Below are positions 5,920-62,563 of a stretch of DNA of 64,000 nt, piece after piece; the stretch's first letter is position 1, and every line of letters begins with the position of its first letter. The stretch is from Comamonas thiooxydans (GTDB lineage: Bacteria; Pseudomonadota; Gammaproteobacteria; Burkholderiales; Burkholderiaceae_C), in contig NZ_AP026738.1 in NCBI RefSeq assembly GCF_002157685.2, forward strand, positions 1,488,001 through 1,552,000, read 5' to 3'. Under the pieces are notes generated by a model. The model worked only from the letters and a program-made list of their open reading frames with translations. It was not told where the DNA came from and did no database searches. The translations under genes and the position numbers were made by a program.

Positions 5920-5976
5920 GTCGGTCTCCTGTGGTGTCTCTGACTTTTCTATCTTGTGGATCCCGCCGGTTTTGAC

Positions 5977-5994
5977 CCCGTCCATTTGGAGTAT
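5977..5994. promoter_or_regulatory. Putative steroid-regulon operator, copy 1 (diverged)
   Basis: CCCGTCCATTTGGAGTAT matches the 18-bp consensus ATCGTCC-N4-GGACGAT at 9 of the 14 arm positions. It lies between the divergent AMACR-like gene and the SDR, 58 nt before the SDR start. Confidence 0.5.
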
Positions 5995-6051
5995 GTCCGG
6001 GGCGCAGGCCAGGCCAACACTGGGCATTCCATAAACCAAGGAGTGCAAGAC

Positions 6052-16255: not shown

Positions 16256-16428
16256 AAGGGTAGGTGCTGTTGGGTGCTGCCTGTCTATCTGCGAGCATGC
16301 TCCCTCGAAACCACAAGGGTCTGCACCAGGTTCAAGCGGACGATGAATGTGGACAGACCGTCGTCGAGCATTGCAGCACCTGCGGGACAAGTGGATTCGT
16401 AAAACGGGAAGACAGACGGAGACAAGAG

Positions 16429-18054
16429 ATGACACGGACCTTCAATCTGGCGGATATTTTTGAGTTGGTGGTGCAAGCTGTGCCGGATCGCATTGCCTTT
16501 GGCTGCGGCAGGCAGAAGCTCAGCTTCAAACAGCTCGATGAGCGAGCCAATCAGCTGGGCAACGCGCTGCGCGCGCGTGGCATAGGACGGGGAGACAACG
16601 TCGGCATCCAGCTCTACAACTGCGCCGAGTATCTGGAGGCCTTTTTCGCCTGCAGCAAGATCGGAGCCGTGCCGGTCAACGTCAACTACCGCTACGTGGC
16701 CGATGAACTTCAGGGGCTGTTCAACAGCCTGGATCTGCGCGGCCTGGTCTATGGCGCGGAGTTCGATGCGTCGGTGCTGGAAGTCATTGCCCTGGTGCCC
16801 ACTTTGCGTCTGGCGCTGCGGGTTGGCGAGGAGCGTCATGGCCTGCCCAGGACAGTGCAACCCTACGAGCGCGTGTTGGCCGAAGGTGGAAAGGAACTCA
16901 CGGACGCCGAGCGCAGCGATGACGATATCTTCATGCTCTGCACCGGCGGCACCACGGGGCTGCCCAAGGGGGTGATGTGGCCGCATAAATCCTTGTTCAT
17001 GGGGGCCTTGGGCGGTGGCGGCTATTACTTCCGCCGGCCTCCCATCGAAAGGCCGGAGGAGCTGCTGCAGCTGGTGCCCAACGGCCCGGCGCTGGCCTAT
17101 CTGGCGGCGGCACCGCTCATGCATGGCGCAGCCATGTGGGCCACCCTGATCAGCCTGTTTTCCGGGCATCCGGTCTATGTGAACGATCGCAAGAACTTTG
17201 ATCCTGTACACATGCTGGACCTGATCGAGCATCACCAGATCAATGTGATGGCCGTGGTTGGCGATGCCATGGCCTTGCCCATCATCCAGACGCTGGAGAG
17301 CAACCCCGGGCGCTGGCCTCTCAAGTCACTGATGATCTTCGGCAATGGCGGTGCCGTGTTCTCGCGCCATCTGCAGGAGCGGCTGCTGGTGCAGCTGCCT
17401 CATCTGGTGCTCAACAACGGCATGGCCAGCTCCGAATCCGGAGTCTTGGGCGGAGGGGAGAAAACGCCCAAGGGCGAAGGCTTTATGCGCATCGCGCCGC
17501 GTCCCGACCTCAGCGTGATCTCCGAAGATCTGCGCATTCTCACGCAGCCAGGGGAGGAAGGCATTCTTTCGCGCCGGGGTCACATGCCCCTGGGCTATTA
17601 CGGAGATCCCAAGAAAACGGCCGAGACCTTTGTGATGGTCGAGGGCAGCCGCTGGGTGTTGACAGGGGACAGGGCTCGCATCGACACCACGGGTGAATAT
17701 GTGGTGCTGGGCCGTGGTTCGCAGTGCATCAACACAGGAGGCGAGAAGGTTTACCCCGAAGAGGTGGAGGAAACCGCGCGCCGCTACCCGCTGGTTCAGG
17801 ATGTGGTGGTCGTGGGCCTTCCTGACGAACGCTGGGGTAGCAAGGTGGTGGCCGTGGTGCAGGTGCAGCAGGGCCACGAGTTCGATCTGCAGGAGTTCGA
17901 AAGGATCTGCCGCAGCAATCTGTCGGGCTACAAGCTGCCGCGCGCCGTGTATCTGGCCACTGAAGTCAAGCGCAGCCCGGCAGGCAAGGCGGATTACCGC
18001 TGGGCCAAGGCCTATGCGGCAGAGCATGAACCGCTGAGCGCCATAGAGGCCTGA
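16429..18054 (+). CDS. Acyl-CoA synthetase (FadD17/FadD19-like, AMP-binding)
   Basis: A 541-residue adenylate-forming ligase that activates a carboxylic acid with ATP and CoA. GGAGACAAGAG precedes ATG 16429; earlier in-frame starts are unsupported. The P-loop is CTGGTTGLPKGVMWPH at about residues 170-185, followed by a TGDRARIDTTGEYVVLGRG hinge and the C-terminal lysine in SPAGKADYRW. The CTGGTTG(L/M)PKGVMW block resembles mycobacterial FadD17/FadD19, ligases for steroid side-chain acids. I infer activation of a bile-acid or cholestenoic side chain. A clear terminator follows; the leader of about 260 nt carries GGACGAT at 16337-16343 but no full operator copy. Confidence 0.9.
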   Translation: MTRTFNLADIFELVVQAVPDRIAFGCGRQKLSFKQLDERANQLGNALRARGIGRGDNVGIQLYNCAEYLEAFFACSKIGAVPVNVNYRYVADELQGLFNSLDLRGLVYGAEFDASVLEVIALVPTLRLALRVGEERHGLPRTVQPYERVLAEGGKELTDAERSDDDIFMLCTGGTTGLPKGVMWPHKSLFMGALGGGGYYFRRPPIERPEELLQLVPNGPALAYLAAAPLMHGAAMWATLISLFSGHPVYVNDRKNFDPVHMLDLIEHHQINVMAVVGDAMALPIIQTLESNPGRWPLKSLMIFGNGGAVFSRHLQERLLVQLPHLVLNNGMASSESGVLGGGEKTPKGEGFMRIAPRPDLSVISEDLRILTQPGEEGILSRRGHMPLGYYGDPKKTAETFVMVEGSRWVLTGDRARIDTTGEYVVLGRGSQCINTGGEKVYPEEVEETARRYPLVQDVVVVGLPDERWGSKVVAVVQVQQGHEFDLQEFERICRSNLSGYKLPRAVYLATEVKRSPAGKADYRWAKAYAAEHEPLSAIEA

Positions 18055-18840: not shown

Positions 18841-20556
18841 TCAGCTTGCCCTCTGCTCGCTGCGCTTGAGCAAGCGGCCCGGCAATGCATCGGTGGCCAT
18901 GCTGTCGCGGTAGGTGATCTGGCCGGACTTGATGGTGTAGCGATAGCCCTGCGCGCCTTGCAGGAAGCGCTTGCCGCCGGCGGGCAGGTCACGAACGATG
19001 TGCGGCGGCAGAATTTTGAGCGCTTGCAGATCGATGATGTTGAGATCCGCCAGCTTGCCGACCTGCAGGACTCCACGGTCGGCAAAGCCATAGAGCGAAG
19101 CCGGCCGCTGCGTCAGCATATGGACGGCCTGCTCGATGCTGAACAGGCCGCGCTTGCGCACCCATTCGGTGAGCAGAAAGGTCGTTGCGCTTCCGTCGCA
19201 GATGGTGCCCACATGGGCGCCGCCATCGCCCAAGGCGGGTACGGTGTGGGGATGGCCGAGCAGCTCGTGCAGAGCGCTGCAGTCATGGTCCAGATAATTG
19301 GCCATGGGCAGATAGACCAGCGCCTGGCCTTCATTGCCCAGCATGAAGTCATACATCCAATCCAGCGGTGGCTGGCCGGCTGCATCGGCCAGAGCCTGAA
19401 CCGAATCGCCTTCTTGCGGCAGATAGTTGGGCTCTTGGTCGCACCAGGGGTACATGCCCGCAAAGTTCTGGCCGAAGTACTCCATGAACAAGTGGGGATT
19501 GCGGTCCTTCTCGCCGAGGATGGCGCTGCGCGTGCCTGGTCGGGACAGCTCTTTGATGCGTTCTGCCGGACTGAGCTGCGCCAGCGCTTCATAGCTGGGC
19601 TTGCAGGAAAAGGGGTTCAGGCTGCATTCGAACCCCATGAGTACGCCCACAGGGCGGTTGAGCACCTGGCCCATGATGCGCAGCCCGCCGGCATTGGCAG
19701 TTTCAATATGCTGTAGCAGCTCTCGGTGCAGTTGCGGGCGGTGCGGATACTGAAGCACGGTGAGCGTGCCGGCGCAGCCCGTGTCCTGACTGACGCGTGT
19801 GAGAATGCTGAATTCGTCCTCGATGTGCTCGAAGTCCGAGATCATCTGGAAGACGCTGTTCGGATAGCTCTTGAGCGAGAGTCCCAGCTCCAGCAACTCC
19901 TCGCCCACGGCCTGGTACATGGGGGTGAAGTCCCCCGACTTGGAGCGGTGGGCCATGGTGCGCGAGGTTGACAGACCAACGGCCCCGGCTGCCAGGCCGT
20001 GCTTGATCAGTTCCTGCATGGTGCTGATGTCCTCGGCATTGGCCTGCTCGCGCCGTATGGCGCGCTCGCCCATTGCATAGACGCGCAGCGGGCCGTGAGG
20101 CAGCAGGGCTGCGATATCGATGTCGTAGCGCCGCGCTGCCAAGGCTTGCAGATATTCAGGAAAGCTTTCCCAGTTCCAGGGCAGGCCTTCATGCAGCGCG
20201 GTGTCGGGGATGTCTTCCACGCCCTCCATGAGCGCAATCAGCGTGTCGCGGTCCTCGGGCCGGCAGGGGGCAAAGCCCACGCCGCAGTTGCCAATCACTG
20301 CGGTGGTCACGCCCTGCTGGGAACTTGGCCAAAGCCTTTCATCCCAGGTCGCCTGACCGTCAAAGTGGGTATGCACATCCACAAAGCCCGGCGTCACCAG
20401 CAATCCGTCTGCATCGATTTGCTGCGCGGCGGTGCCCAGGTCTTGGCCGATGGCGGCGATGCGCCCGTTGCGCACGCCGATGTCCGCGCGGTAAGCGGGG
20501 GCGCCGGTGCCGTCCACGATGCGGCCGTTACGGATCAGCAAGTCGAATTGCTGCAT
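18841..20556 (-). CDS. Amidohydrolase family 3, N-acyl-D-amino-acid deacylase-like
   Basis: A 571-residue metal-dependent amidohydrolase of the D-aminoacylase/dihydroorotase branch. AGGAGACTGACAC precedes ATG 20556. It carries the HxHxD metal motif VHTHFDGQ (His62, His64, Asp66), GNCG with the metal-binding Cys91 of D-aminoacylases, and a late GDGGAHVG aspartate motif. The family cleaves N-acyl amides. In a bile-acid region, hydrolysis of glycine or taurine conjugates or of a cyclic intermediate is conceivable, but this is a guess. Its upstream region holds the only perfect copy of the 18-bp operator, shared with the divergent MFS gene. Confidence 0.85.
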
Positions 20557-20650
20557 GTGTCAGTCTCCTTGAAGTTCTGGTGTACGGCAGAGCTCGCCGC
20601 CGTATTCCATTAAGAGGCAATCCGCACGCAAGGCCAATCGGGGTTAGGGA

Positions 20651-20668
20651 ATCGTCCGTTGGGACGAT
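20651..20668. promoter_or_regulatory. Putative steroid-regulon operator, copy 2 (perfect inverted repeat)
   Basis: ATCGTCC-GTTG-GGACGAT is a perfect 7-bp inverted repeat. It lies between the divergent amidohydrolase gene (95 nt from its start) and the MFS gene (120 nt from its start), so it could control both. Confidence 0.7.
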
Positions 20669-20787
20669 GTGGGAGCGGCTGCCCATGACCACGATGCTCA
20701 AGGCGGCGCCGGGATGCGGCCGCCATCTCGTCCTGGCAGTGGCGCAGAGGTGTGAGCTGCGGCGTGATGCAAAAAACCAAGAAGACA

Positions 20788-22980: not shown

Positions 22981-24090
22981 TCAGGCCGTCGCTTCCTCGG
23001 CTTCCTGCGTATAGGCCACCATTCCGCGAGGAATGTACCTGCCTTCGCACTGGTCCAGATACTCGGCCGCCTTGGTGCGGGGGTTGTAGAACTGCTTGTA
23101 CCAGATGCGGGCCTTGAGGAAGGCGCCGTCGCTGGGGATAAACAGCGGGTTCAGGCAGGGCGCCTTCTGAGACCAGACTTCGAAGTCCTGGGCAAAGGCC
23201 AGGCGGCTGGACTCCTGGTACTGTTTGGCCGCGATTTCATCCGCCTTGGTGGGCAGGCCGCCGTGTGCAGTCTTGACCAGCAGGTTGTGCCAGACCTTGA
23301 TCCTGCCGTCCTCGATGGGGGTATGCATGATCATCATGAAGGAGTTGAACATGCCGCTGACCTTGGCGACCAGGATGGCGGGGCCGTGGTACCAGGTGTC
23401 TGTGTGCAGATCGGCGCTGGCACCGCCTTCGCCCACCAGGGTGCGGTGACCGCCGCACTGGCGCTGGATGGCGTTGTGGCCCTTGAATTCGTTCTCGAAG
23501 CGCGCCACGGTGGAGCCGTGGATGGGGCTCAGATGACCATAGTCGGCAATATTGTCCACGACCTCCATGGGGTGCTGGTTCAGCTCGCCCAGGTAATCCC
23601 ATTGGCCGTTGACATAGGTCTCGTCATGCCAGTCGCCAAAAGTGGGCAGATCGTAGTCGGGCTCGCCGCCTTCGGGATCGAACCAGACCCAGATGGCTCC
23701 GTACTGCTCGACAACCTTCCAGCTCTTGACTGCGGCCGCGGCCGGAATGGCTCCGTCGTGATAGGGGATGTGGTTGCACTTGCCGTCCGCGCCGAAGCGC
23801 CAGCCGTGATAGGGGCAGCGGATTCCGTCGCCTTCCACATTGCTGCCGCCGCCATCGATCACCACATAGCTGGTGGCATTGGGCGCTGCCAGATGGGTCT
23901 TCATATGGGGGCAGTAAGCGTCCAGCAGCACGACCTTGCCGCTTTCGCGGCCACGGTACAGCGCGAAATCCTGGCCGAAGAAGCGCACGGCCACGGGCTT
24001 GTGGGTGTCGAGCGCCTTGGCCTCGGAAATCATGAACCAGCCACGTGGGTAGGTAAATTCACCGAGGCGGTAGTCCTTCGTGGTTGCCAT
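22981..24090 (-). CDS. kshA: Rieske oxygenase, 3-ketosteroid 9-alpha-hydroxylase oxygenase component
   Basis: A 369-residue Rieske non-haem iron oxygenase. The start is ATG 24090, behind GGAGACCTCTGCA; the longer frame is not supported. The [2Fe-2S] ligands are Cys60-Pro-His62 and Cys92-Pro-Tyr-His95. The mononuclear iron site follows the KshA spacing, D-x2-H-x4-H (Asp183, His186, His191 in NIADYGHLSPIHG). Known KshA proteins hydroxylate C9 of androstadienedione, which with 1,2-dehydrogenation opens ring B. Length and motifs fit, but some bile-acid Rieske paralogues act on other carbons, so C9 is likely rather than certain. The reductase partner KshB is not in the window. Operator-like half sites lie 63 nt upstream. 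Confidence 0.8.
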   Translation of the reverse strand: MATTKDYRLGEFTYPRGWFMISEAKALDTHKPVAVRFFGQDFALYRGRESGKVVLLDAYCPHMKTHLAAPNATSYVVIDGGGSNVEGDGIRCPYHGWRFGADGKCNHIPYHDGAIPAAAAVKSWKVVEQYGAIWVWFDPEGGEPDYDLPTFGDWHDETYVNGQWDYLGELNQHPMEVVDNIADYGHLSPIHGSTVARFENEFKGHNAIQRQCGGHRTLVGEGGASADLHTDTWYHGPAILVAKVSGMFNSFMMIMHTPIEDGRIKVWHNLLVKTAHGGLPTKADEIAAKQYQESSRLAFAQDFEVWSQKAPCLNPLFIPSDGAFLKARIWYKQFYNPRTKAAEYLDQCEGRYIPRGMVAYTQEAEEATA

Positions 24091-24152
24091 TGCAGAGGTC
24101 TCCGTATTTAGTTTTGGACGGATGAATCTTCTGGCAAGAGGCGTCGCCGCGC

Positions 24153-24170
24153 ATACTCTGTTTGGACGAG
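24153..24170. promoter_or_regulatory. Putative steroid-regulon operator, copy 3 (one strong half)
   Basis: ATACTCTGTTTGGACGAG has a good right half (TTTGGACGA) and a poor left half. A second TTTTGGACG half site lies at 24112-24120. Both are upstream of the minus-strand kshA-like gene, at 63 and about 22 nt from its start. Confidence 0.4.
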
Positions 24171-24248
24171 TGAAGGCGCGGCTTTGATCTGGCGCAAACC
24201 GCACAGGGTTTGCCCTTGGTTGGGTGTTTGTGCACGCTTACATGCTGC

Positions 24249-25107: not shown

Positions 25108-26451
25108 TCAGGCGGCATTCATCTGCAACTGCTGCAGGCGCTGCTTGTAGGGGCGGATGGCCAACGCGAAGAAAAGCGAAGTGATGACGAGCAGCGAGGT
25201 CACGCCCATCAGCGCCCAGCGCAGGCCTTCGGAGCCATGAGTCCGGGCAAAGTAGTCCGACAGAATGCCGGTTACCAGCGGACCCAGGCCAACGCCCAGC
25301 AAGGTCATGAAAAGATTGAGAAGTGCCGAGGCGACGCTGCGTTCGGCTGCAGTCACCATCTGGCTGACGGCGCTGTATGAGAGCGTGGCAAACCAGCTCG
25401 CAAAAAAGCCGAACAGCAGGGCAAATGCCATGGCATAGGGGACCTTGATACCGGCAACCGTCCAGAAGTCGGACACGGGCCAGAAAAACACGGCGACGCC
25501 TGCAGGCACGGCGCAGAAGGTGCCCATTGCAGCCAGACGCAGCTGCCAGCGCGAGTCGCGCTGGGTCAATCTGTCACTGAGCCAGCCGCAGAACATGGCG
25601 CCGGCCACGGCACCCAGGCCGCTGGCCAGACCGAACACCAGGCCGGCGTGAGAGATGCTCATGCCGTGAATGCGCATGAAAAAGCTCGGCGCCCAGACGC
25701 CGTAGCCATAACCTGCAATACCGGCCACGCCGCAGGCGATGCAGATATGGCGCAGCGGCGCCATGCCCAGCAGGCGCCTGACCTGGTGAAACATGGATTC
25801 GCGCGCAGCGCTGCCTTGAGCTGCAGGCTTGATGCTTTCATAGGCGCCTCGTGCCGGTTCCTTGACAAAGAAATACACCAGCAGCGCAAGAATTACGCCC
25901 GGAATGCCGAAGGCGAGAAACACGGAGCGCCAGCCGTAATGCTGGGCCACCATGCCGCCTATGACGAGGCCCAGCAACGTTCCCAGGTTGGGGCCCATCA
26001 TGAACAGACTGATGGCAAACGAACGCATCTTGGGAGGATACAGATCCGAGACGATGGACACCGAGGGCGCCATGCCGCCGGCCTCGCCCACGGCCACGCT
26101 CATGCGGGCCAGCAGCATGTGCCAGTACTGGGTGGCCATGCCGCAGGCAGCGGTGGCAAGGCTCCAGATCCCGCAGCACAGGGCCACGATGTTGCGGCGG
26201 TTGCGTGTGTCGGCCAGACGTCCCACAGGCACACCCAGCATGGCATAGATCAGACCGAAGGCCAGCCCCGTGAGCAAACCCATCTCGGTATCGGAGGCGC
26301 CGAATTCCTGTTTGACGGGCTCCAGCAAAATAGACAGAACCTGTCGGTCAATGAAGGAGAAAATATAGACCAGCGCCAGCAGGGCGAGGCTGAGATGAGT
26401 GCGCCAGCTGACGGCGGGAGGCGGGGTTTGATGGGTGTGCATGCGCTGCAT
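25108..26451 (-). CDS. MFS transporter, spinster-like (third paralogue)
   Basis: A 447-residue carrier with about 12 helices and the shared block SFIDRQVLSILLEPVKQEFGASDTEMGLLTG and GRLADTRNRRN. ATG 26442 is an alternative start. The downstream SDR begins 22 nt after the stop, so they form a small operon. It is divergent from the aldehyde dehydrogenase gene, with an operator copy between them. Candidate steroid or bile-acid transporter. Confidence 0.87.
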   Translation of the reverse strand: MQRMHTHQTPPPAVSWRTHLSLALLALVYIFSFIDRQVLSILLEPVKQEFGASDTEMGLLTGLAFGLIYAMLGVPVGRLADTRNRRNIVALCCGIWSLATAACGMATQYWHMLLARMSVAVGEAGGMAPSVSIVSDLYPPKMRSFAISLFMMGPNLGTLLGLVIGGMVAQHYGWRSVFLAFGIPGVILALLVYFFVKEPARGAYESIKPAAQGSAARESMFHQVRRLLGMAPLRHICIACGVAGIAGYGYGVWAPSFFMRIHGMSISHAGLVFGLASGLGAVAGAMFCGWLSDRLTQRDSRWQLRLAAMGTFCAVPAGVAVFFWPVSDFWTVAGIKVPYAMAFALLFGFFASWFATLSYSAVSQMVTAAERSVASALLNLFMTLLGVGLGPLVTGILSDYFARTHGSEGLRWALMGVTSLLVITSLFFALAIRPYKQRLQQLQMNAA

Positions 26452-26476
26452 CGTGCGAGGGGCTCAGGGTTATGCC

Positions 26477-26494
26477 ATCGTCTTTTTGGACGAC
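26477..26494. promoter_or_regulatory. Putative steroid-regulon operator, copy 4
   Basis: ATCGTCT-TTTT-GGACGAC matches 12 of 14 arm positions. It lies 26 nt from the start of the minus-strand MFS gene and 73 nt from the plus-strand aldehyde dehydrogenase gene, so it may serve both. Confidence 0.65.
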
Positions 26495-26566
26495 GACCGC
26501 GAAATCCGGAGGTCTGAGCATGTGCCTTCCGTTCATGGCTTTCAAGAGAAGTATCGAGGAGACAAA

Positions 26567-27991
26567 ATGACCCAGACGAATTCGTCCATCGGCATTCGCC
26601 AGCTGCTGGACATGCAAAAACAGGCCTTTATCGAAGAGGCTGCGGTCAGCGCCGATGTGCGCATGCAGCGCATTCAGCAAGTCATCGACATGCTGGTGGA
26701 GCACAAGGAGGAGCTTTGCCAGGCCATGGGCGAAGACTTTGGTGGCCGCCCCGCCGTGTTCTCGCTGGCCAATGACATTCTTGGCTCGCTCTCCTCGCTC
26801 AAGCATGCACGCGATCACCTCAGGGACTGGCTGGGTGACTCCGAGCGTCCCAGCGTCAAACCCTTTGACATGTTTGGCGCCACGGCCTGGGTCAAGTACC
26901 AGCCCAAGGGTGTGATCGGCATCATCGGCACCTGGAATGCGCCGCTGTTCACCTTGCTGTCGCCGCTGGCCTGCGCGTTCGCGGCTGGCAACCGGGCCGT
27001 GCTCAAACCTTCCGAAATTGCGCCGCGTACGGCCCAGGTGCTGGCCGAGGCCGTGGCCAAGCGCTTTGATCCTCAGGTGCTGGCCGTGGTGCAGGGAGGC
27101 CCCGAGGTGGCTGCGGCGTTTGCCGAGCAGCCCTGGAACCATCTGGTCTTCACGGGCTCCACCAGCGTGGGCAAGCTCATCATGGCTGCCGCCGCCAGAA
27201 ACCTGGTTCCCGTGACGCTGGAGCTGGGTGGAAAGTCCCCCGTGCTGGTGGGCGATTCCGCCGACATCGCCAATGCGGCCGAGCGCATCGCCGTAGGCAA
27301 GTCGCTCAACTCCGGCCAGCTTTGCGTGTCACCCGACGTGGTCTGGGTCCATGAATCCCGCCTGCAGGCGCTGGCCGATGGCATTGCTTCGCAATACCAG
27401 GCGCTGTACCCCTCGGTGACAGGCAACGCAGACATGACGCCCGTGATCAACGAGCGCCACCATGCACGTGTGAAAGCCTATGTCGATGATGCCAAGGCGC
27501 GCGGTCTGACCGTGCTGGAAGTCGGTGCCGCGCAAGCCGGCGCAGACCGCCGCCTGCCGCTGGCGCTGGTCGTCAACCCGCCAGCCGAAGCTGAAATCTC
27601 CCAGCACGAAATCTTTGGCCCGGCCGTGGTGCTGCGCAGCTTCCTGAACATCCGCGATGCGGTGGCAGCGATCAATGCCGGCGAGCGCCCGCTGGCTCTG
27701 TACTACTTCGGCAACGACGAGACGGAGCAGAACTGGGTGCTGGACAACACGCTGTCCGGCGGTGTCTCCATCAATGACGTGGTCATGCATCCGGCGCTGG
27801 AGGATGCGCCGTTTGGCGGCGTGGGCGCTTCGGGCATGGGGCACTATCATGGCCGCGAGGGTTTTCTCGAGTTCAGCCATGCCCGCTCCGTCTACAAGGC
27901 CGGCAACCACGACCCGCGTCGCGAGTGGGGCATGCTGCCGCCCTACAACCCGCAGTTCGAGCAGATGCTGCAGGCTGCAGTCACCCCCTGA
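26567..27991 (+). CDS. Aldehyde dehydrogenase (coniferyl-aldehyde-dehydrogenase type)
   Basis: A 474-residue NAD(P)-dependent aldehyde dehydrogenase. GAGGAGACAAA precedes ATG 26567. Catalytic Cys253 is in SGQLCVSPD, general-base Glu219 in LELGGKSP, and the structural Asn is in GTWNAPLF. In bile-acid degraders such as Pseudomonas stutzeri Chol1 the first side-chain round ends in an aldol cleavage, giving a C22 aldehyde that an aldehyde dehydrogenase (Sad) oxidises to the C22 acid. This protein is a good candidate for that step, since a second-round operon sits in the same window. Its promoter region carries the 18-bp operator. Confidence 0.9.
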   Translation: MTQTNSSIGIRQLLDMQKQAFIEEAAVSADVRMQRIQQVIDMLVEHKEELCQAMGEDFGGRPAVFSLANDILGSLSSLKHARDHLRDWLGDSERPSVKPFDMFGATAWVKYQPKGVIGIIGTWNAPLFTLLSPLACAFAAGNRAVLKPSEIAPRTAQVLAEAVAKRFDPQVLAVVQGGPEVAAAFAEQPWNHLVFTGSTSVGKLIMAAAARNLVPVTLELGGKSPVLVGDSADIANAAERIAVGKSLNSGQLCVSPDVVWVHESRLQALADGIASQYQALYPSVTGNADMTPVINERHHARVKAYVDDAKARGLTVLEVGAAQAGADRRLPLALVVNPPAEAEISQHEIFGPAVVLRSFLNIRDAVAAINAGERPLALYYFGNDETEQNWVLDNTLSGGVSINDVVMHPALEDAPFGGVGASGMGHYHGREGFLEFSHARSVYKAGNHDPRREWGMLPPYNPQFEQMLQAAVTP

Positions 27992-28173: not shown

Positions 28174-28195
28174 ACCATGGGGCTTGCCCCATGGT
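28174..28195 (+). other. Perfect 10-bp hairpin ACCATGGGGC-TT-GCCCCATGGT
   Basis: A perfect inverted repeat with a 2-nt centre lies between the aldehyde dehydrogenase and 7-alpha-HSDH-like genes. There is no T-run, so it is a poor terminator. Its right arm overlaps the operator-like site at 28191. It may be a cruciform or a second regulator site. Confidence 0.5.
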
Positions 28196-28208
28196 CCGTT
28201 TGGCTGAT
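28191..28208. promoter_or_regulatory. Putative steroid-regulon operator, copy 5
   Basis: ATGGTCC-GTTT-GGCTGAT matches the consensus arms at 11 of 14 positions and lies 60 nt before the start of the 7-alpha-HSDH-like gene. Confidence 0.5.
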
Positions 28209-28267
28209 GCCCTGAAAGCGTTTCGTACAGAGCATGGGCGGGTCTGAACGCAATCATAGGAAGAGAC

Positions 28268-29038
28268 ATGAACGAGATTTTTCGCCAGTTTTCGCTGGAG
28301 GGGAAGGTGGCCGTGGTGACCGGCGCGGGCAAGGGTATCGGCCGTGCATGCGCTGTCACGCTGGCGAAGGCCGGCGCCGATGTGGCGTTGTTTGCGCGCA
28401 CCGAGGCGGATCTGCAGGCAGTCAAGGCCGAAATTGAAGCGCTGGGCCGCCGCGCCATTGCCGTGCAGGGCGATGTGAACAAGGAAGAAGATCTGGACAA
28501 ACTCATCGTCCGCACTGTGGAGGAGCTGGGCAAGATCAATGTGCTCATCAACAATGTGGGCGGTGGCGGCCCCAACGACCCGCGCAAGGTCACGGGCAAG
28601 GCCGTGGGGGACATGCTGGCCTTCAATGTGGTGCCGGCCTATACGCTGATCCAGAAGGCAGCCGTCGCCATGGAGGCAGCGGGCGGCGGTGCGGTGGTCA
28701 ACATCTCGTCCACGGCGGCACGCTACTCACAGAAGTACTTCAGCGCCTATGGTGCGGCCAAGGCCGCTCTCAACCAGATGACGCGCTGCCTGGCACAGGA
28801 CTTCGGCCCCAGGGTGCGTATCAACGCCATCGAGCCCGGCACCATCATGACTGATGCACTGGCGCCGTTTCTCACGCCGGAGCGCAAGGAGCGCATGGAA
28901 AAAACCACGCCCATGGCACGCATGGGCCAGCCCGAAGACATTGCCAATGCCGCGCTGTTTCTGGCCAGCCCCGCATCCAGCTGGGTGACCGGCAAGGTGC
29001 TGGGAGTGGACGGAGGCGTGGAAGCGCCCAACTTCTGA
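28268..29038 (+). CDS. SDR resembling 7-alpha-hydroxysteroid dehydrogenase
   Basis: A 256-residue SDR. It has GAGKGIG (20-25 region), NNVGGGGPNDP, Ser148, YGAAK (Tyr161, Lys165), the EPGTIMTDAL loop and the C-terminal run TPMARMGQPEDIANAALFLASPASSWVTGK. These blocks match my memory of E. coli HdhA, which oxidises the 7-alpha-hydroxyl of bile acids (there NNAGGGGP, APGAILTDAL, RLGQPQDIANAALFL). The most likely role is oxidation of a bile-acid hydroxyl, with position 7 the first guess. GGAAGAGAC precedes the ATG, an operator-like repeat lies upstream, and a strong terminator follows. Confidence 0.82.
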   Translation: MNEIFRQFSLEGKVAVVTGAGKGIGRACAVTLAKAGADVALFARTEADLQAVKAEIEALGRRAIAVQGDVNKEEDLDKLIVRTVEELGKINVLINNVGGGGPNDPRKVTGKAVGDMLAFNVVPAYTLIQKAAVAMEAAGGGAVVNISSTAARYSQKYFSAYGAAKAALNQMTRCLAQDFGPRVRINAIEPGTIMTDALAPFLTPERKERMEKTTPMARMGQPEDIANAALFLASPASSWVTGKVLGVDGGVEAPNF

Positions 29039-29288: not shown

Positions 29289-30224
29289 TCATGCCCTGGA
29301 GCGGATTTGCTCCTGCATCAGATCCACGAAGGCTTTGACCTTTGCCGGTCGGAATCGTGCGGTCGGGAACACGGCATGAATGCCCCCCGATGGCAGCGAC
29401 CATCTGGGCAGCACCAGTATCAGCGCGCCACTCTTCAAATCATCGGTCACGGCGAAGTCGGGCAGTACCGACAAGCCTGCCCCATGACGCACTGCTTCGC
29501 GCACGGCCAGTGTCGCATCGAGCGAGATCGCAGGGTGCACCGTCACGCTCTGGCGCTCCAGCTCGCTGCGCGAGAAGCTCCAGTTACAGGGTTCACGCAA
29601 GGCCGTGTTCGCGACAAAGGGCAGCTCGCTGATGTGCTGTGGCTGTTTGAGCTGCGTCACTTGCCGGCGCAATGAGGGTGCGGCGACCAGCAATTGCCTG
29701 AAGCTCCCGATCTGACGGGCCTGCACATTCAGGTGGGAAAGCCAGCCGACGCGGATTGCCAGCTCGACCTGCCCCGACATCAGATCAAGCGGCTGGTCGC
29801 TGAACACTGCGTCCACCTTGCATTGGGGATAGCGCCGCGTGAACTCGGTGATGGCTGGCACCACTGCCGTGATGCCATAGTCCAGCGGGGCGGTCAGGCG
29901 CAAGGTTCCCGAAGGCTCGGCCGCCACTTCCCCCAGCTCGTCGAAAGCATCACCTGCCTCCTTGAGGATGGATGCGCAGCGTTGATAAAAGATCCGGCCT
30001 GCATCGGTGGGAACGACCTTGCGGGTGGTGCGAGTCAGAAGCGTCGTGTGGAATTCGCGCTCCAGCCTTGCGACCTGCTGGCTGACCACGGCCTTGGTGA
30101 TGCCCAGCCGGTCCGCGGCCGCCGTGAAACTGCCGGTTTCCACCACGGCCGCGAAGTAGGCCAGGCGCTTGAGATTGGCAAGCTTGCCGGCGACGGATTC
30201 TTCTGAATTGTTTGCCATTGACAT
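29289..30224 (-). CDS. LysR-type transcriptional regulator
   Basis: A 311-residue LysR-family regulator. The N-terminal winged helix-turn-helix is at about residues 18-75 (LKRLAYFAAVVETGSFTAAADRLGITKAVVSQQVARLE), followed by the periplasmic-binding-like effector domain. The start is ATG 30224 or 30218. It is divergent from the dsbA-like pseudogene and the genes after it, the usual arrangement for a LysR regulator and its target operon. Confidence 0.92.
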   Translation of the reverse strand: MSMANNSEESVAGKLANLKRLAYFAAVVETGSFTAAADRLGITKAVVSQQVARLEREFHTTLLTRTTRKVVPTDAGRIFYQRCASILKEAGDAFDELGEVAAEPSGTLRLTAPLDYGITAVVPAITEFTRRYPQCKVDAVFSDQPLDLMSGQVELAIRVGWLSHLNVQARQIGSFRQLLVAAPSLRRQVTQLKQPQHISELPFVANTALREPCNWSFSRSELERQSVTVHPAISLDATLAVREAVRHGAGLSVLPDFAVTDDLKSGALILVLPRWSLPSGGIHAVFPTARFRPAKVKAFVDLMQEQIRSRA

Positions 30225-38039: not shown

Positions 38040-40067
<2,028 letters not shown>

Positions 40068-40110
40068 TCACGCGCAAATCTCGCGCCAGTGTAGGAAGAG
40101 CCACGGTAAA

Positions 40111-40125: not shown

Positions 40126-40129
40126 TCAC

Positions 40130-40147
40130 ATCGTCCGTTTGCATGTA
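40130..40147. promoter_or_regulatory. Putative steroid-regulon operator, copy 6 (one perfect half)
   Basis: ATCGTCC-GTTT-GCATGTA has a perfect left half and a degenerate right half. It is 64 nt before the hsdA start and 75 nt from the divergent FadH-like start. Confidence 0.55.
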
Positions 40148-40163
40148 GTCTGACTTTTCATGA

Positions 40164-40173
40164 TGGGCTTTGA
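40164..40173. promoter_or_regulatory. TGGGCTTTGA decamer, possible proximal hsdA operator
   Basis: The decamer lies 38 nt upstream of the hsdA ATG and has an exact inverted copy at 38524. It would fit the looping operators I recall being described for hsdA; this is not confirmed here. Confidence 0.5.
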
Positions 40174-40210
40174 TGTGCGCCATCACCACCCAGACAAAAG
40201 GAAACAAGAC

Positions 40211-47244: not shown

Positions 47245-48057
47245 TCACTCCCCCTTGAACACCGGCTGGCGTTTCTCGATGAACGCATTCATGCCTTCCT
47301 TCTGGTCGCGGGTCGCAAACAGAATCTGGTTGGCCTTGCGCTCCAGCATCAGGGCGGCATCGAGCGATGCGTCCATGCCGGCAATCACCACTTCCTTGAT
47401 CTGCTCCACGGCCAGTGGCGGCATATTGGCAATCAGTTTTGCCATTTTCAGCGCCTCAGGGATTACCTGATCGTCTGCACAGACTAGGCTGACCAGACCC
47501 ATGGCATAGGCTTCGTCGGCGCTGACGGGCTTGCCGGTCAGCAGAATGCGCATGGCCTGGAACTTGCCCACGGCGCGCACCAGCCGCTGGGTGCCGCCGA
47601 TACCGGGCATGATGCCGATCCGAATCTCGGGTTGTGCAAAGCTGGCCCCTTGCCCGGCAATGATGATGTCGCAATGCATGGCCAGCTCGGCCCCGCCGCC
47701 AAAGGCATAGCCGCAGACCGCTGCGATGATGGGTTTGGGGCATTTTTCGATCGGCGCCCAGACACGCTCGGTGTGGCGCTTCATGATCTCTATGGGGCCG
47801 CAGGAGTCCATGCTCTTGATGTCGCCGCCTGCCGCAAACACCTTGTCGCCGCCGGTCAGAACGATGCAGCGCACGCTGGTGTCTGCGCTCAGCTCAGCGA
47901 AGGTCCTGGACAGTGCAGCCTGCAGAGAAAGACTCAGCGCATTCGTTGCCTCGGGGCGGTTGAGCTGAACGATTGCCACGCCATGGTCCTGATGCCGAAC
48001 CAGTAGCTCTCGCTGCGCGGTGTCCATGTTTTCAATAGCGGAAAGCGATGCCGACAT
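47245..48057 (-). CDS. Enoyl-CoA hydratase/isomerase family protein
   Basis: A 270-residue crotonase. ATG 48057 is chosen over the TTG four codons upstream. Oxyanion loops are KVFAAGGDIKSM and GYAFGGGAELAMHCD; the glutamate region is FAQPEIRIGIMPGIGGTQRLVRAVG, with both acid positions (Glu in PEI, and the E-like position replaced by G-I-G) so the first Glu is present while the second position reads Gly. It likely hydrates an enoyl-CoA in the side-chain or ring pathway. It is divergent from the SDR-led igr-like operon and shares its operator region. Confidence 0.88.
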   Translation of the reverse strand: MSASLSAIENMDTAQRELLVRHQDHGVAIVQLNRPEATNALSLSLQAALSRTFAELSADTSVRCIVLTGGDKVFAAGGDIKSMDSCGPIEIMKRHTERVWAPIEKCPKPIIAAVCGYAFGGGAELAMHCDIIIAGQGASFAQPEIRIGIMPGIGGTQRLVRAVGKFQAMRILLTGKPVSADEAYAMGLVSLVCADDQVIPEALKMAKLIANMPPLAVEQIKEVVIAGMDASLDAALMLERKANQILFATRDQKEGMNAFIEKRQPVFKGE

Positions 48058-48113
48058 AAGGATTCCCAAGGAGTTGAACAGGGACGATGGTCGTTTTCAA
48101 GGGATAGGGCAAC

Positions 48114-48131
48114 ATCGTCCTTTTGGACGTA
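48114..48131. promoter_or_regulatory. Putative steroid-regulon operator, copy 7
   Basis: ATCGTCC-TTTT-GGACGTA has a perfect left half and 5 of 7 on the right. It lies 35 nt before the SDR start and 57 nt from the divergent hydratase start. An extra GGACGAT half site is at 48082-48088, between the site and the hydratase gene. Confidence 0.65.
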
Positions 48132-48165
48132 TCTGCTGCCGGTGCCGAAACCTAAATTGGCAGGC

Positions 48166-48957
48166 ATGGATACGAACAAAAGCTTTCAAGACAAGGTGGT
48201 GCTGGTCACTGGCGGCACCAAGGGCATCGGCAAGGGCATTGCCCAGGCGTTTCTCGCGGCAGGTGCCACGGTAGTGGTGTGCGGCCGTCAGCAACCCGAA
48301 GCGTTGCCAAGCATCAATGGCAGCAGCGCAGACTTCGTTGCATGCGATGTGCGGGAGGCCCAGGCCGTCAAGGACATGGTCGATGAGGTGCAGCGCCGCC
48401 ATGGCCGTCTGGACGTTCTCGTCAACAACGCCGGTGGCGCCCCCCATGTGGATGCCGCTACGGTGTCGCCGCGCTTTCATGAAAGCGTGCTGCGTCTGAA
48501 CCTGTTCTCGACCTTGCACGCCTCTCAGGCCGCCAATGCAGTGATGCAGCAGCAGGACGGCGGTGGCGTGATTGTCTGCATCGGCAGCATCAGCGCGCTG
48601 CGTCCTTCCCCCGGTACGGCGGCCTATGGAGCGGCCAAGGCCGCAGTGCTGAGCCTGGTCAGCTCTCTGGCTGTGGAGTGGGCGCCCAAGGTGCGTGTGG
48701 TGGCCGTCAGCCCCGGCCTGGTGCGCACCGAACAGTCGCACCTGCATTTCGGGGATGAGGCGGGAATTGCCTCTGTCGCCGGGACCATTCCTGCGGGTCG
48801 TCTGGCCGAGCCGCAGGACATTGCCAATGCCTGTCTGTATGTGGCTTCCGAAAACGCTTCTTACATGAGCGGCACCAATCTGCTGCTGCATGGCGGTGGT
48901 GAGCGCCCCGCATTTCTGAGCGCATCGAACTCGGAATCCGTGCAACAAAAACACTGA
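48166..48957 (+). CDS. Short-chain dehydrogenase/reductase, first gene of igr-like operon
   Basis: A 263-residue SDR from ATG 48166 behind GGCAGGC; an upstream in-frame ATG at 48142 is less well placed. It has GGTKGIG (16-22), NNAGGAP, Ser141 and YGAAK (Tyr154, Lys158). It ends with an unusual tail FLSASNSESVQQKH. It leads a run of genes for side-chain removal, with 18 nt to the next start. A hydroxy-steroid or hydroxyacyl-CoA substrate is expected; I cannot say which. Confidence 0.87.
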   Translation: MDTNKSFQDKVVLVTGGTKGIGKGIAQAFLAAGATVVVCGRQQPEALPSINGSSADFVACDVREAQAVKDMVDEVQRRHGRLDVLVNNAGGAPHVDAATVSPRFHESVLRLNLFSTLHASQAANAVMQQQDGGGVIVCIGSISALRPSPGTAAYGAAKAAVLSLVSSLAVEWAPKVRVVAVSPGLVRTEQSHLHFGDEAGIASVAGTIPAGRLAEPQDIANACLYVASENASYMSGTNLLLHGGGERPAFLSASNSESVQQKH

Positions 48958-60983: not shown

Positions 60984-61183
60984 CATTGGGCAAAGCGCTT
61001 TGAGTTACCCATGTGGACTAGGTCTCTAGGGTCTGTCAGTAGTCAACTCAGACGATGGTTGAAGAGGCCTGCTGACGCAGTATGCAACTGCCTGCAAACG
61101 GCAAAACCAATGGGGCGATGCGAGGCAATGCACCTCGTTTGTAGCACCCACCAAAAATAAGTTCTAGAACCTAGGAGACAGAG
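60984..61183 (+). promoter_or_regulatory. Leader of the DUF1329/DUF1302 unit
   Basis: About 200 nt with no gene. It contains TAGGTCTCTAGGG-type short repeats and the ribosome site CTAGGAGACAGAG before ATG 61184. No convincing copy of the 18-bp operator is present, so this unit may be controlled differently. Confidence 0.4.
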
Positions 61184-62563
61184 ATGAAGTTTGTGACAGC
61201 CAAGACTCCACTCGCAGCGGCAGTGGGTTTGATGGTGGCGACGTCGGTATGGGCGAAGGTGCCGGCGAACGAGGCGGAACAGCTGGGCAAGGAATTGACA
61301 TGCGTGGGTGCCATCAAGGCCGGCAACAAGGAAGGCACGATTCCCGAATTCACTGGCAAGTGGGCTGGCGCACCGACTGGCGTGGCTCATGTGCAATCCA
61401 GCGGCAAGCATCCCGTAGATATCTATGCCGATGAAAAGCCACTGTTCGTGATCACCGCAGAGAACATGGAGAAGTATGGCGACAAGCTCAGCGCTGGTCA
61501 GAAAGCCATGTTCCAGAAGTACCCCAAGACCATGCAGATTCCGGTCTACAAGGGGCACCGCGATTTCCGCTACACCGATGAGGTGTGCGCAGTGCTGAAG
61601 AAGAATGCCTTGGAGTCGGAGGTCGTCGATAACGGCATGGGAATCAAGGGCAGCTTTGGTGCGATCAACTTCCCGATTCCCAAGACCGGGCAGGAAGTGA
61701 TCTGGAACAACCTGCTGCCCACACGTGCCTACACCGAGGCCATCACGCGTGACATGGCGAATGTGCTGTCAGACGGCAGCATGAGCTTTGGCCGTATGCA
61801 GAACCTGAACCTGGACATGGTCAACAAGCCTGAAATGCTGGGCAAGCCGGTTGAGGGCGTGATGGCCTATACGCGCACCAGAACGCTGGCTCCCGAGCGT
61901 GAAAAGGGCGGTGTGACCCACTCGGTAGAGCCCGTCAATTTCGGCAAGGACAAGCGCCTGGCCTGGAGCTATGACCCCGGTACACGCCGCGTGCGCCAGG
62001 TGCCCGAGTATGGCTTTGACCAGCCCATGGCTGGCACCGGCGGCAAGATGACCATCGACTCGGATCGTCTCTTCAATGGCTCGCCAGAGCGCTACAGCTG
62101 GAAGCTGCTGGGCAAGAAGGAGATGTATATCCCCGCCAACAACTACAAGATCCATCAGCCCACGGTGAAGTATGCCGACCTGCTCAAGCCCGGTCATGCC
62201 AACCCCGATTTCATGCGCTACGAGCTGCGCAGAGTCTGGGCCGTGGAAGGCACGCTGAAGGACGGTTTCCGACATGTCTATGGCAAGCGTGTGCTGTTCG
62301 TGGACGAGGACACCGGCCAGGCCGTGGCCGCGGACATGTACGACGCGCGTGGCCAGTTGTGGCAGCACGCCTTCATCAACTACTACTACTCCTTTGACAT
62401 CAAGGCCTGGCATGCAGGCACGTCCTTCTATCACGACCTGAATTCCGGCGGTTACATGGGCTACAACCTTTTTCAGGAGCGTCCCCAGGGGCCAATCCTG
62501 AACAAGGGTGATCTCGTGCCCGCCATGTTCACACCAGAAGCCGCACGCAACGCGGGCAACTAA
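61184..62563 (+). CDS. DUF1329 envelope protein, secreted
   Basis: A 459-residue protein with a signal peptide (MKFVTAKTPLAAAVGLMVATSVWA, cleaved near WAK-VP). The mature protein carries DUF1329 features such as PIPKTGQEVIWNNLLPTRAYTEAITRD, RRVRQVPEYGFDQPMAGTGGKM, YIPANNYKIHQPTVKYADLLKPGHANPDFMRYELRRVWAVEGTLKDGFRHVYGKRVLFVDEDTGQA, with a beta-rich, LolA-like or sorting-protein appearance. It is always found with DUF1302 proteins in gene sets for hydrophobic substrates. It is probably a periplasmic or outer-membrane-associated handler of steroids or lipids. The next gene starts 23 nt on. Confidence 0.85.
   Translation: MKFVTAKTPLAAAVGLMVATSVWAKVPANEAEQLGKELTCVGAIKAGNKEGTIPEFTGKWAGAPTGVAHVQSSGKHPVDIYADEKPLFVITAENMEKYGDKLSAGQKAMFQKYPKTMQIPVYKGHRDFRYTDEVCAVLKKNALESEVVDNGMGIKGSFGAINFPIPKTGQEVIWNNLLPTRAYTEAITRDMANVLSDGSMSFGRMQNLNLDMVNKPEMLGKPVEGVMAYTRTRTLAPEREKGGVTHSVEPVNFGKDKRLAWSYDPGTRRVRQVPEYGFDQPMAGTGGKMTIDSDRLFNGSPERYSWKLLGKKEMYIPANNYKIHQPTVKYADLLKPGHANPDFMRYELRRVWAVEGTLKDGFRHVYGKRVLFVDEDTGQAVAADMYDARGQLWQHAFINYYYSFDIKAWHAGTSFYHDLNSGGYMGYNLFQERPQGPILNKGDLVPAMFTPEAARNAGN

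Follow-up and report, generated by a model that had tools for sequence, protein, structure and literature searches.

A 20-bp dyad upstream of proteobacterial steroid-degradation genes is a probable class II operator of the LuxR-type regulator TesR

An inverted repeat that recurs upstream of steroid-metabolism genes in Comamonas thiooxydans is, very probably, the operator of TesR, a LuxR-type regulator whose gene lies at 1212–2459 of the window, and we refer to it as the TesR box. The window is the 64 000-nucleotide stretch analysed here, 1488001–1552000 of a single-contig genome of 5.914 Mb; positions are those of the window unless given as contig positions. The operator has the form of a 20-bp dyad, CATCGTCC-N4-GGACGATG. 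From the box, its phase to the −10 element, its conservation and the fact that it occurs together with TesR, all of which were computed, we infer binding, activation, ligand and feedback as follows. TesR would bind the dyad as a dimer, presumably with a steroid or one of its breakdown products as ligand. The dyad is centred some 30.5 bp upstream of a −10 hexamer that is itself poor, and near −42.5 from the expected start. Bound TesR would contact RNA polymerase and stand in for the missing −35 element (class II activation), and a single near-symmetric box could drive two divergent promoters. The box precedes many transcription units of the steroid region, a tesR paralogue and a few outlying genes. 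It also stands before an operon that probably ends in tesR itself, which would create positive feedback.

The sequence-only reading had described seven 18-mers, at 20651, 5977, 24153, 26477, 28191, 40130 and 48114, and all were re-found. The core at 20651 is perfect (7/7 arm pairs); out of 14 arm positions, 26477 and 48114 have two mismatches, 28191 has three, and 5977, 24153 and 40130 have four. On the window only, the case for the repeat is modest. Allowing up to three mismatches, the perfect pattern has eight matches against 2.29 expected, a number reached in 0 of 100 shuffles; four of the eight are sites already described and the others lie at 23917, 29877, 33819 and 55232. The whole genome gives a clearer picture: its three best places, the only ones with 0–1 mismatch, are window position 20651 and contig positions 1486492 and 1557493, all within a steroid region of approximately 110 kb and two of them just beyond the window edges. 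At up to two mismatches the genome has 44 places and the reversed control 21, which means that many of the two-mismatch places are background. A symmetric matrix built from the seven sites matched, at a score of at least 14, seven places in the window (the training sites), eight in the 80 kb of flanking DNA (that at contig 1572292 falls inside a gene) and two in 200 kb of control stretches. Twenty column permutations that keep the palindrome gave means of 0.4, 0.4 and 1.1, respectively.

The length of the spacer is also specific. With the exact symmetric pattern, a spacer of 4 was the sole one with matches, spacers of 2, 3, 5, 6 and 7 giving none in any region or control, and the reversed control gave a single match (spacer 6). 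With up to two mismatches, the steroid region has five matches for spacer 4 and 0–2 for each of the spacers 0–3 and 5–9; a random spacer length was rejected on these counts. When 77 distinct cores, taken from the present genome and from relatives, are combined in a profile, both arms agree, as expected of an inverted repeat of approximately 18–20 bp. The spacer shows a mere lean to purine-A/T-A/T-pyrimidine in the same profile, after which TTT, present in the window sites, was dropped as a fixed spacer element.

To follow the box in other genomes, we used a sample of 299 genomes of the family, in 11 of which TesR has a homologue at E<1e-80. The exact pattern WTMGTCYN4RGACKAW occurs on average 5.45 times per genome in these 11 and 0.50 times in the other 288. 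A marker not chosen for TesR, the gene at contig 1474404, which we take to be IpdC-like from its gene neighbourhood, is present in 10 of the 299, all ten among the 11 with TesR. Because the marker is confined to TesR genomes, the family test cannot separate TesR from steroid genes. Of the family members that lack TesR at E<1e-20, four (G218, G084, G104 and G115) carry four to five exact copies of the symmetric pattern, and four more (G261, G163, G287 and G217) carry variants such as ATAGTCC-N4-GGACTAT; in these eight, a related regulator with another regulon is possibly at work.

A marker-alignment search reached further. The best 80 named loci (1.53 Mb) span Comamonas, Polaromonas, Paraburkholderia, Burkholderia, Pandoraea, Pseudomonas, Halopseudomonas, Nevskia, Vibrio, two Rhizobiaceae bins and others. 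The window-trained matrix had 186 matches in them (20 permuted palindromic matrices: mean 11, maximum 33), and 73 of the 80 loci had at least one. A tesB-type gene is included together with its upstream DNA in 64 proteobacterial loci, and in 62 of these a box (score ≥13) lies within 320 nt upstream of that gene, against 0–1 of 64 for 20 permuted matrices. The two loci with no box at this score before the tesB-type gene, L158 and L181, come from genomes that both hold a TesR homologue; they may have diverged boxes or another arrangement. The operator is thus spread over a wide range of Beta- and Gammaproteobacteria. In Alphaproteobacteria, boxes were found in two bins only, the Rhizobiaceae bins L168 and L180, which have no tesB-type match and lie outside the 64. 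One record, titled as a Singulisphaera MAG (L109), holds a Comamonadaceae-like steroid locus with 80% marker identity and is probably a contaminated or mislabelled bin.

That the similarity is chance, a background of matches to a loose pattern, might be argued from the window, where half of the matches at up to three mismatches fall elsewhere than the described sites and three of the seven sites have four mismatches. The new sites outside the window, the presence of the box in other genera, the permuted-matrix controls and a fixed phase to the −10 element stand against this, and we rejected it as having a vanishingly small probability. The earlier proposal that the repeat is an operator of a steroid regulon is supported by the comparative evidence, including conservation across genomes, permuted controls and −10 phase.

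The phase became apparent when boxes with a called gene start 35–140 nt downstream, selected and lined up by the 18-mer alone, were aligned after near-identical promoters had been collapsed (68 to 57 in the family set, 113 to 80 in the named set). A hexamer of the form NANN(A/C)T begins exactly 21 nt past the 18-bp core in 38/57 non-redundant promoters of the family set and 46/80 of the named set, while all other offsets from 0 to 39 gave counts of 0–7. The base directly past the core is G in 88% (family) and 81% (named), and for this reason we take the dyad to be 20 bp. A consensus −35 element was not seen: among 134 oriented boxes none matched TTGACA at five or six of six positions and 11 matched at four. 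The −10 is weak as well, with 43 of the 134 matching TATAAT in phase at two or fewer of six positions. Transcription usually starts approximately 7 nt past the −10. As the −10 begins 21 bp past the core, the box centre would lie near −42.5 from a start deduced in this way, in fixed phase to the −10. LuxR and other class II activators sit at about −42.5, and the geometry suggests a LuxR-like class II activator rather than a repressor. Two of the boxes, at 26477 and 48114, have in-phase hexamers on both sides, and that at 20651 on one side (towards the MFS gene); near-symmetry allows a single box to act on divergent promoters to either side.

These observations bear on whether the box might instead be the operator of a repressor, TetR-type or other, that is released by a steroid. 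A short palindrome near a promoter would fit many repressors, and the edge of the box reaches the −35 position. Against this, 84 of the 137 non-redundant promoters in the two sets have a −10-like hexamer at the very same distance from the box, and the −35 is degenerate, both of which are expected for activator-dependent promoters but unneeded for a repressor. A TetR-type operator would be free in position and accompany an intact core promoter, and we rejected it on finding a single fixed distance and a degenerate −35. Of the regulator genes recognised in the steroid region (tesR, two LysR genes and one XRE-type gene), tesR alone is kept in the loci of all ten relatives, which were, however, chosen by TesR, in a survey that covered homologues of the window-region regulators. 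With the same limit on the choice of loci, the LysR genes at 29289 and 43466 were set aside as not kept in relatives' loci, and the XRE-type gene at contig 1465640, named from its N-terminal sequence alone, as kept only in G128. We consider a repressor very unlikely. The sequence-only reading had held a TetR-type repressor to be equally compatible with the spacing. The fixed 21-bp distance from box to −10 and the lack of a −35 consensus contradict this; both point to an activator that touches RNA polymerase.

The box is most likely a familiar kind of element, the class II operator of a LuxR-type activator. The lux box of Vibrio fischeri is 20 bp long and centred near −42.5, and the TesR box shares with it and with other class II operators the 20-bp dyad, the inferred centre near −42.5, the lack of a −35 consensus and a candidate protein with a GerE helix-turn-helix. 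It differs in its half-site, CATCGTCC, which is unrelated (12–15 of 20 positions mismatch the lux box), and TesR, unlike LuxR, shows weak PAS matches and no acyl-homoserine-lactone domain. Actinobacterial steroid regulons are controlled by the TetR-family repressors KstR and KstR2, with which the present system has in common one operator for many steroid operons. Their motifs, TNNAACNNGTTNNA and ANCAAGNNCTTGNT, had no match in the window, and an operator of the KstR/KstR2 type was rejected.

The candidate regulator, encoded on the + strand at 1212–2459, is a LuxR/GerE-type protein of 415 aa with a GerE Pfam domain at residues 353–406 and a PAS match below cut-off. Its gene is the last of 18 called genes counted from the tesB-type gene, the same run from tesB to tesR that was reportedly described in 2004. 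We identify it as TesR/TeiR, as a GerE helix-turn-helix protein that ends this run. It is 100% identical (rounded) to the copy in the genome of Comamonas testosteroni ATCC 11996 (L103/G299), where the marker is 98% identical, which places the present genome in or close to C. testosteroni. TesR/TeiR of C. testosteroni is reported to be required for the induction of steroid degradation (TA441, ATCC 11996) and for growth on testosterone. It is a known activator for which, to our knowledge, no operator has been defined; what is added here is a probable operator, its geometry and its spread.

That the LuxR-type gene at 1212 is the obvious regulator had been suggested from the window, and the comparative evidence (co-occurrence, helix conservation and TesR-negative genomes) argues for it. 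A TesR homologue at E ≤ 8.5e-53 was found in 40 of 40 searched genomes that bear marker loci. In an alignment of 41 sequences, residues 361–400, which contain the recognition helix, have a mean identity to TesR of 0.85–0.95, against 0.17–0.74 in other blocks; the 41 take in TesR and copies nearly identical to it as well as four sequences of paralogues. They omit the stop-flagged L044, L207, L208 and L209, an over-cautious choice given that these stops are confined to the outermost residues at either end of the match. If the operator has not changed, a recognition helix that hardly varies is to be expected.

To separate TesR from steroid genes, we turned to a class-level sample of 303 genomes, with TesR (E≤1e-45) in two and the marker (E≤1e-110) in five. 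Three of the genomes, G355, G498 and G580, have the marker and steroid-type genes, with no TesR even at E≤1e-3, and a search of them with a promoter model gave no match better than E 0.236. The same search of five TesR-positive genomes gave 8–28 matches each, with best E-values of 5.7e-7 to 0.0023. Among these five, G178, G333 and G338 had contributed promoters to the model; G004 (28 matches) and G315 (14) had contributed none. The TesR-negative G355, G498 and G580, taken with the same-genus G219 and G289, had 0–4 weak matches each (best E 0.12). G355 holds much of the steroid cluster, with genes that we take to be tesB-, tesE-, tesF- and tesG-like, and others, at 40–79% identity, as well as a 45% homologue of the XRE-type gene; within 60 kb around its cluster no matrix match exceeded 12.1 (a single match at 12.1). 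G498 has one unlike matrix match, 13.6 (ATCATCCATCACGATGAT), in its 14.3-kb marker contig, and G580 has no matrix match in a marker contig of just 6.5 kb. The box seems to follow TesR, not merely steroid genes, on a comparison of three genomes of which two have short contigs (14.3 and 6.5 kb), and with a search in which an empty answer is weak evidence. Among the ten genomes searched, G004 has the most model matches (28 in a genome of 3.8 Mb), mostly in two groups on contig 1 at approximately 2019265–2097053 and 2516460–2522428, which may mean a second steroid cluster.

Another activator could conceivably read the box, either a TesR paralogue or an unlinked regulator, with TesR merely correlated. 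The window's genome encodes three TesR paralogues, at contig 2155384, 5186952 and 2664500 (58, 59 and 41% identity, respectively). Their recognition helices are largely the same as that of TesR, so they could bind the box too. Boxes precede both the paralogue at 2155384 and a nearby SDR gene (2158588), whereas the paralogue at 5186952 has no strong box within 20 kb. Arguing the other way, G302, G303, G304 and G308 each have a single TesR-family match at E≤1e-15, and boxes are present in their loci L112, L114, L115 and L120; moreover, TesR lies inside box-bearing clusters in the window's genome and in relatives. We regard another activator as unlikely and TesR as the better candidate. It is rather likely that Beta- and Gammaproteobacteria, and perhaps some Alphaproteobacteria as well, have the TesR box and TesR as their common steroid switch, in which the recognition helix and the half-site have stayed almost unchanged, the rest of the regulator has diverged to approximately 40% identity and the catabolic enzymes to approximately 60%. 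The pair would travel with the clusters, with bidirectional boxes and a small network shared with the TesR paralogues.

We also trained a cross-genus model, R1, on 52 promoters from outside the window's genome and G128, with the −10 included. It left out 19 of 71 listed non-redundant promoters: 15 from the window's genome, G128 and contig 14 of G142, and four weaker ones (L150, L151, L168 and L169). Its training promoters had been found by the window-trained matrix and filtered for an in-phase −10-like hexamer (L116 is a MAG labelled Comamonas sp.), so the recovery of window sites by R1 is not fully independent; the test of −10 phase and those with permuted matrices are. The top places in the window were 20651, 26477 (both strands), 48114, 24153, 5977, 61039, 16327 (weak) and 28191, and the five of ten control stretches given to the model (100 kb) scored at most 7.8 bits. 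As the sequence-only reading had noted, the LysR/SDR pair (43466/44504) and the accessory genes at 29–34 kb are without a box, no R1 match reaching 8.5 bits there. Its distances from box to gene also hold, the likely start codon being 34–83 nt from the box centre, with 103 and 108 (or 129) nt for the box at 20651.

The first box (5976–5995, core 5977–5994, + strand, 13.8 bits) has a −10-like AACACT at 6016–6021 and lies upstream of an SDR gene (ATG 6052) divergent from a CoA-transferase III gene; G128 has an orthologous box. The second (20650–20669), with the perfect core at 20651–20668, scores 23.1 bits on the + strand, the best in the window. Its −10-like CACGAT (20690–20695) faces the MFS gene at 20767 (+), and there is no in-phase −10-like hexamer on the side of the amidohydrolase gene (18841–20556, −). 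On the − strand, the third box (24152–24171, core 24153–24170, 15.5 bits) has GAAGAT at 24126–24131 and lies upstream of a kshA-like gene (22981–24090, −) with a KshA_C Pfam domain; its core is identical in G128, G018 and G231. The fourth (26476–26495, core 26477–26494) works out in both directions, with 18.7 bits and an in-phase GAGCAT (26516–26521) towards ALDH at 26567 on the + strand, and 15.8 bits and CACGAT (26450–26455) towards MFS (25108–26451) on the − strand. The fifth (28190–28209, core 28191–28208, +, 9.8 bits) is followed by GAGCAT at 28230–28235 and an SDR gene at 28268–29038, and has orthologues in G128, G018, G231 and G178.

The sixth box (40129–40148, core 40130–40147) has one good arm and 7.4 bits, within the noise of the model; boxes occupy the corresponding place in G128 and G178. 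Towards hsdA (ATG 40211) TTTGAT is in phase at 40169–40174, and towards an Oxidored_FMN gene (38040–40055, −) TACCGT lies at 40103–40108. The operators of RepA, a regulator of hsdA, are the 10-mers TCAAAGCCCA and TGGGCTTTGA, and both are found near hsdA, at 38524 and 40164. They differ from the box in sequence, and TGGGCTTTGA lies downstream of it. Because TGGGCTTTGA overlaps the presumed −10 of hsdA, repression by RepA could be a second layer upon TesR activation there.

The seventh box (48113–48132, core 48114–48131) is again two-sided, with 16.3 bits on the − strand and 7.9 bits on the + strand, and its flanking genes are assigned by Pfam. TAAATT (48153–48158) is in phase towards an SDR operon at 48166 (+) and GACCAT (48087–48092) towards an enoyl-CoA hydratase gene at 47245–48057 (−). 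An eighth, missed earlier (61038–61057, core 61039–61056, +, 12.5 bits), has CAGTAT at 61078–61083 and lies upstream of DUF1329 (61184–62563) and DUF1302 (62587 onwards) genes, named by Pfam; the orthologous box in G128 scores 13.8 bits. At 16326–16345 (core 16327–16344, +, 10.6 bits), with GAGCAT in phase at 16366–16371, a further match lies upstream of an acyl-CoA synthetase gene (16429–18054). It has no counterpart in G128, and we rejected it as a firm site and retain it as a weak, uncertain candidate.

The regulon also extends beyond the window. Scanning the flanks and the loci of other genera with a matrix from the seven sites, along the lines of the check proposed with the sequence-only reading, yielded new boxes in both, and the regulon has more members than the seven described. 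Besides the eighth box there are seven more just outside the window, within the steroid region, at contig 1467278, 1470836, 1486492, 1557493, 1557548, 1560054 and 1567829. The box at 1470836 precedes the tesB-type dioxygenase gene, and that at 1486492 (window −1508) probably heads the operon ending in tesR. Those at 1557493 and 1557548 form a pair between divergent genes, and the box at 1567829 also lies between two divergent genes, presumably tesA1 and tesA2. Genome-wide, with 150 of 2764 candidates scored by R1, 14 of the 24 matches listed, which correspond to 12 distinct boxes, fall in the steroid region, approximately 2% of the genome; the boxes at 28191 and 40130 are absent among these 24. 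Several of the ten outside matches have plausible targets: contig 2084085 lies upstream of a DUF1329 gene like that at 61184, 5611000 and 2158588 upstream of SDR genes, 243456 upstream of an SDR-like reading frame (assigned without Pfam) and 2155226 upstream of the tesR paralogue. At least three (1609854, 5425436 and 367428) fall within reading frames and resemble background matches.

The degradation of steroids and bile acids by proteobacteria is relevant to hormone pollution and to intermediates of steroid drugs. A box with an exact promoter geometry allows the regulon to be listed in any genome and can point to missing pathway genes, here the DUF1329/DUF1302 and outlying SDR genes. It may also serve the design of steroid biosensors and direct tests of TesR binding. 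The DUF1329 and DUF1302 genes at 61184–64110 are of unknown function; as a second, far-off DUF1329 gene (contig 2084085) also has its own box, the DUF1329 family is linked to steroid use.
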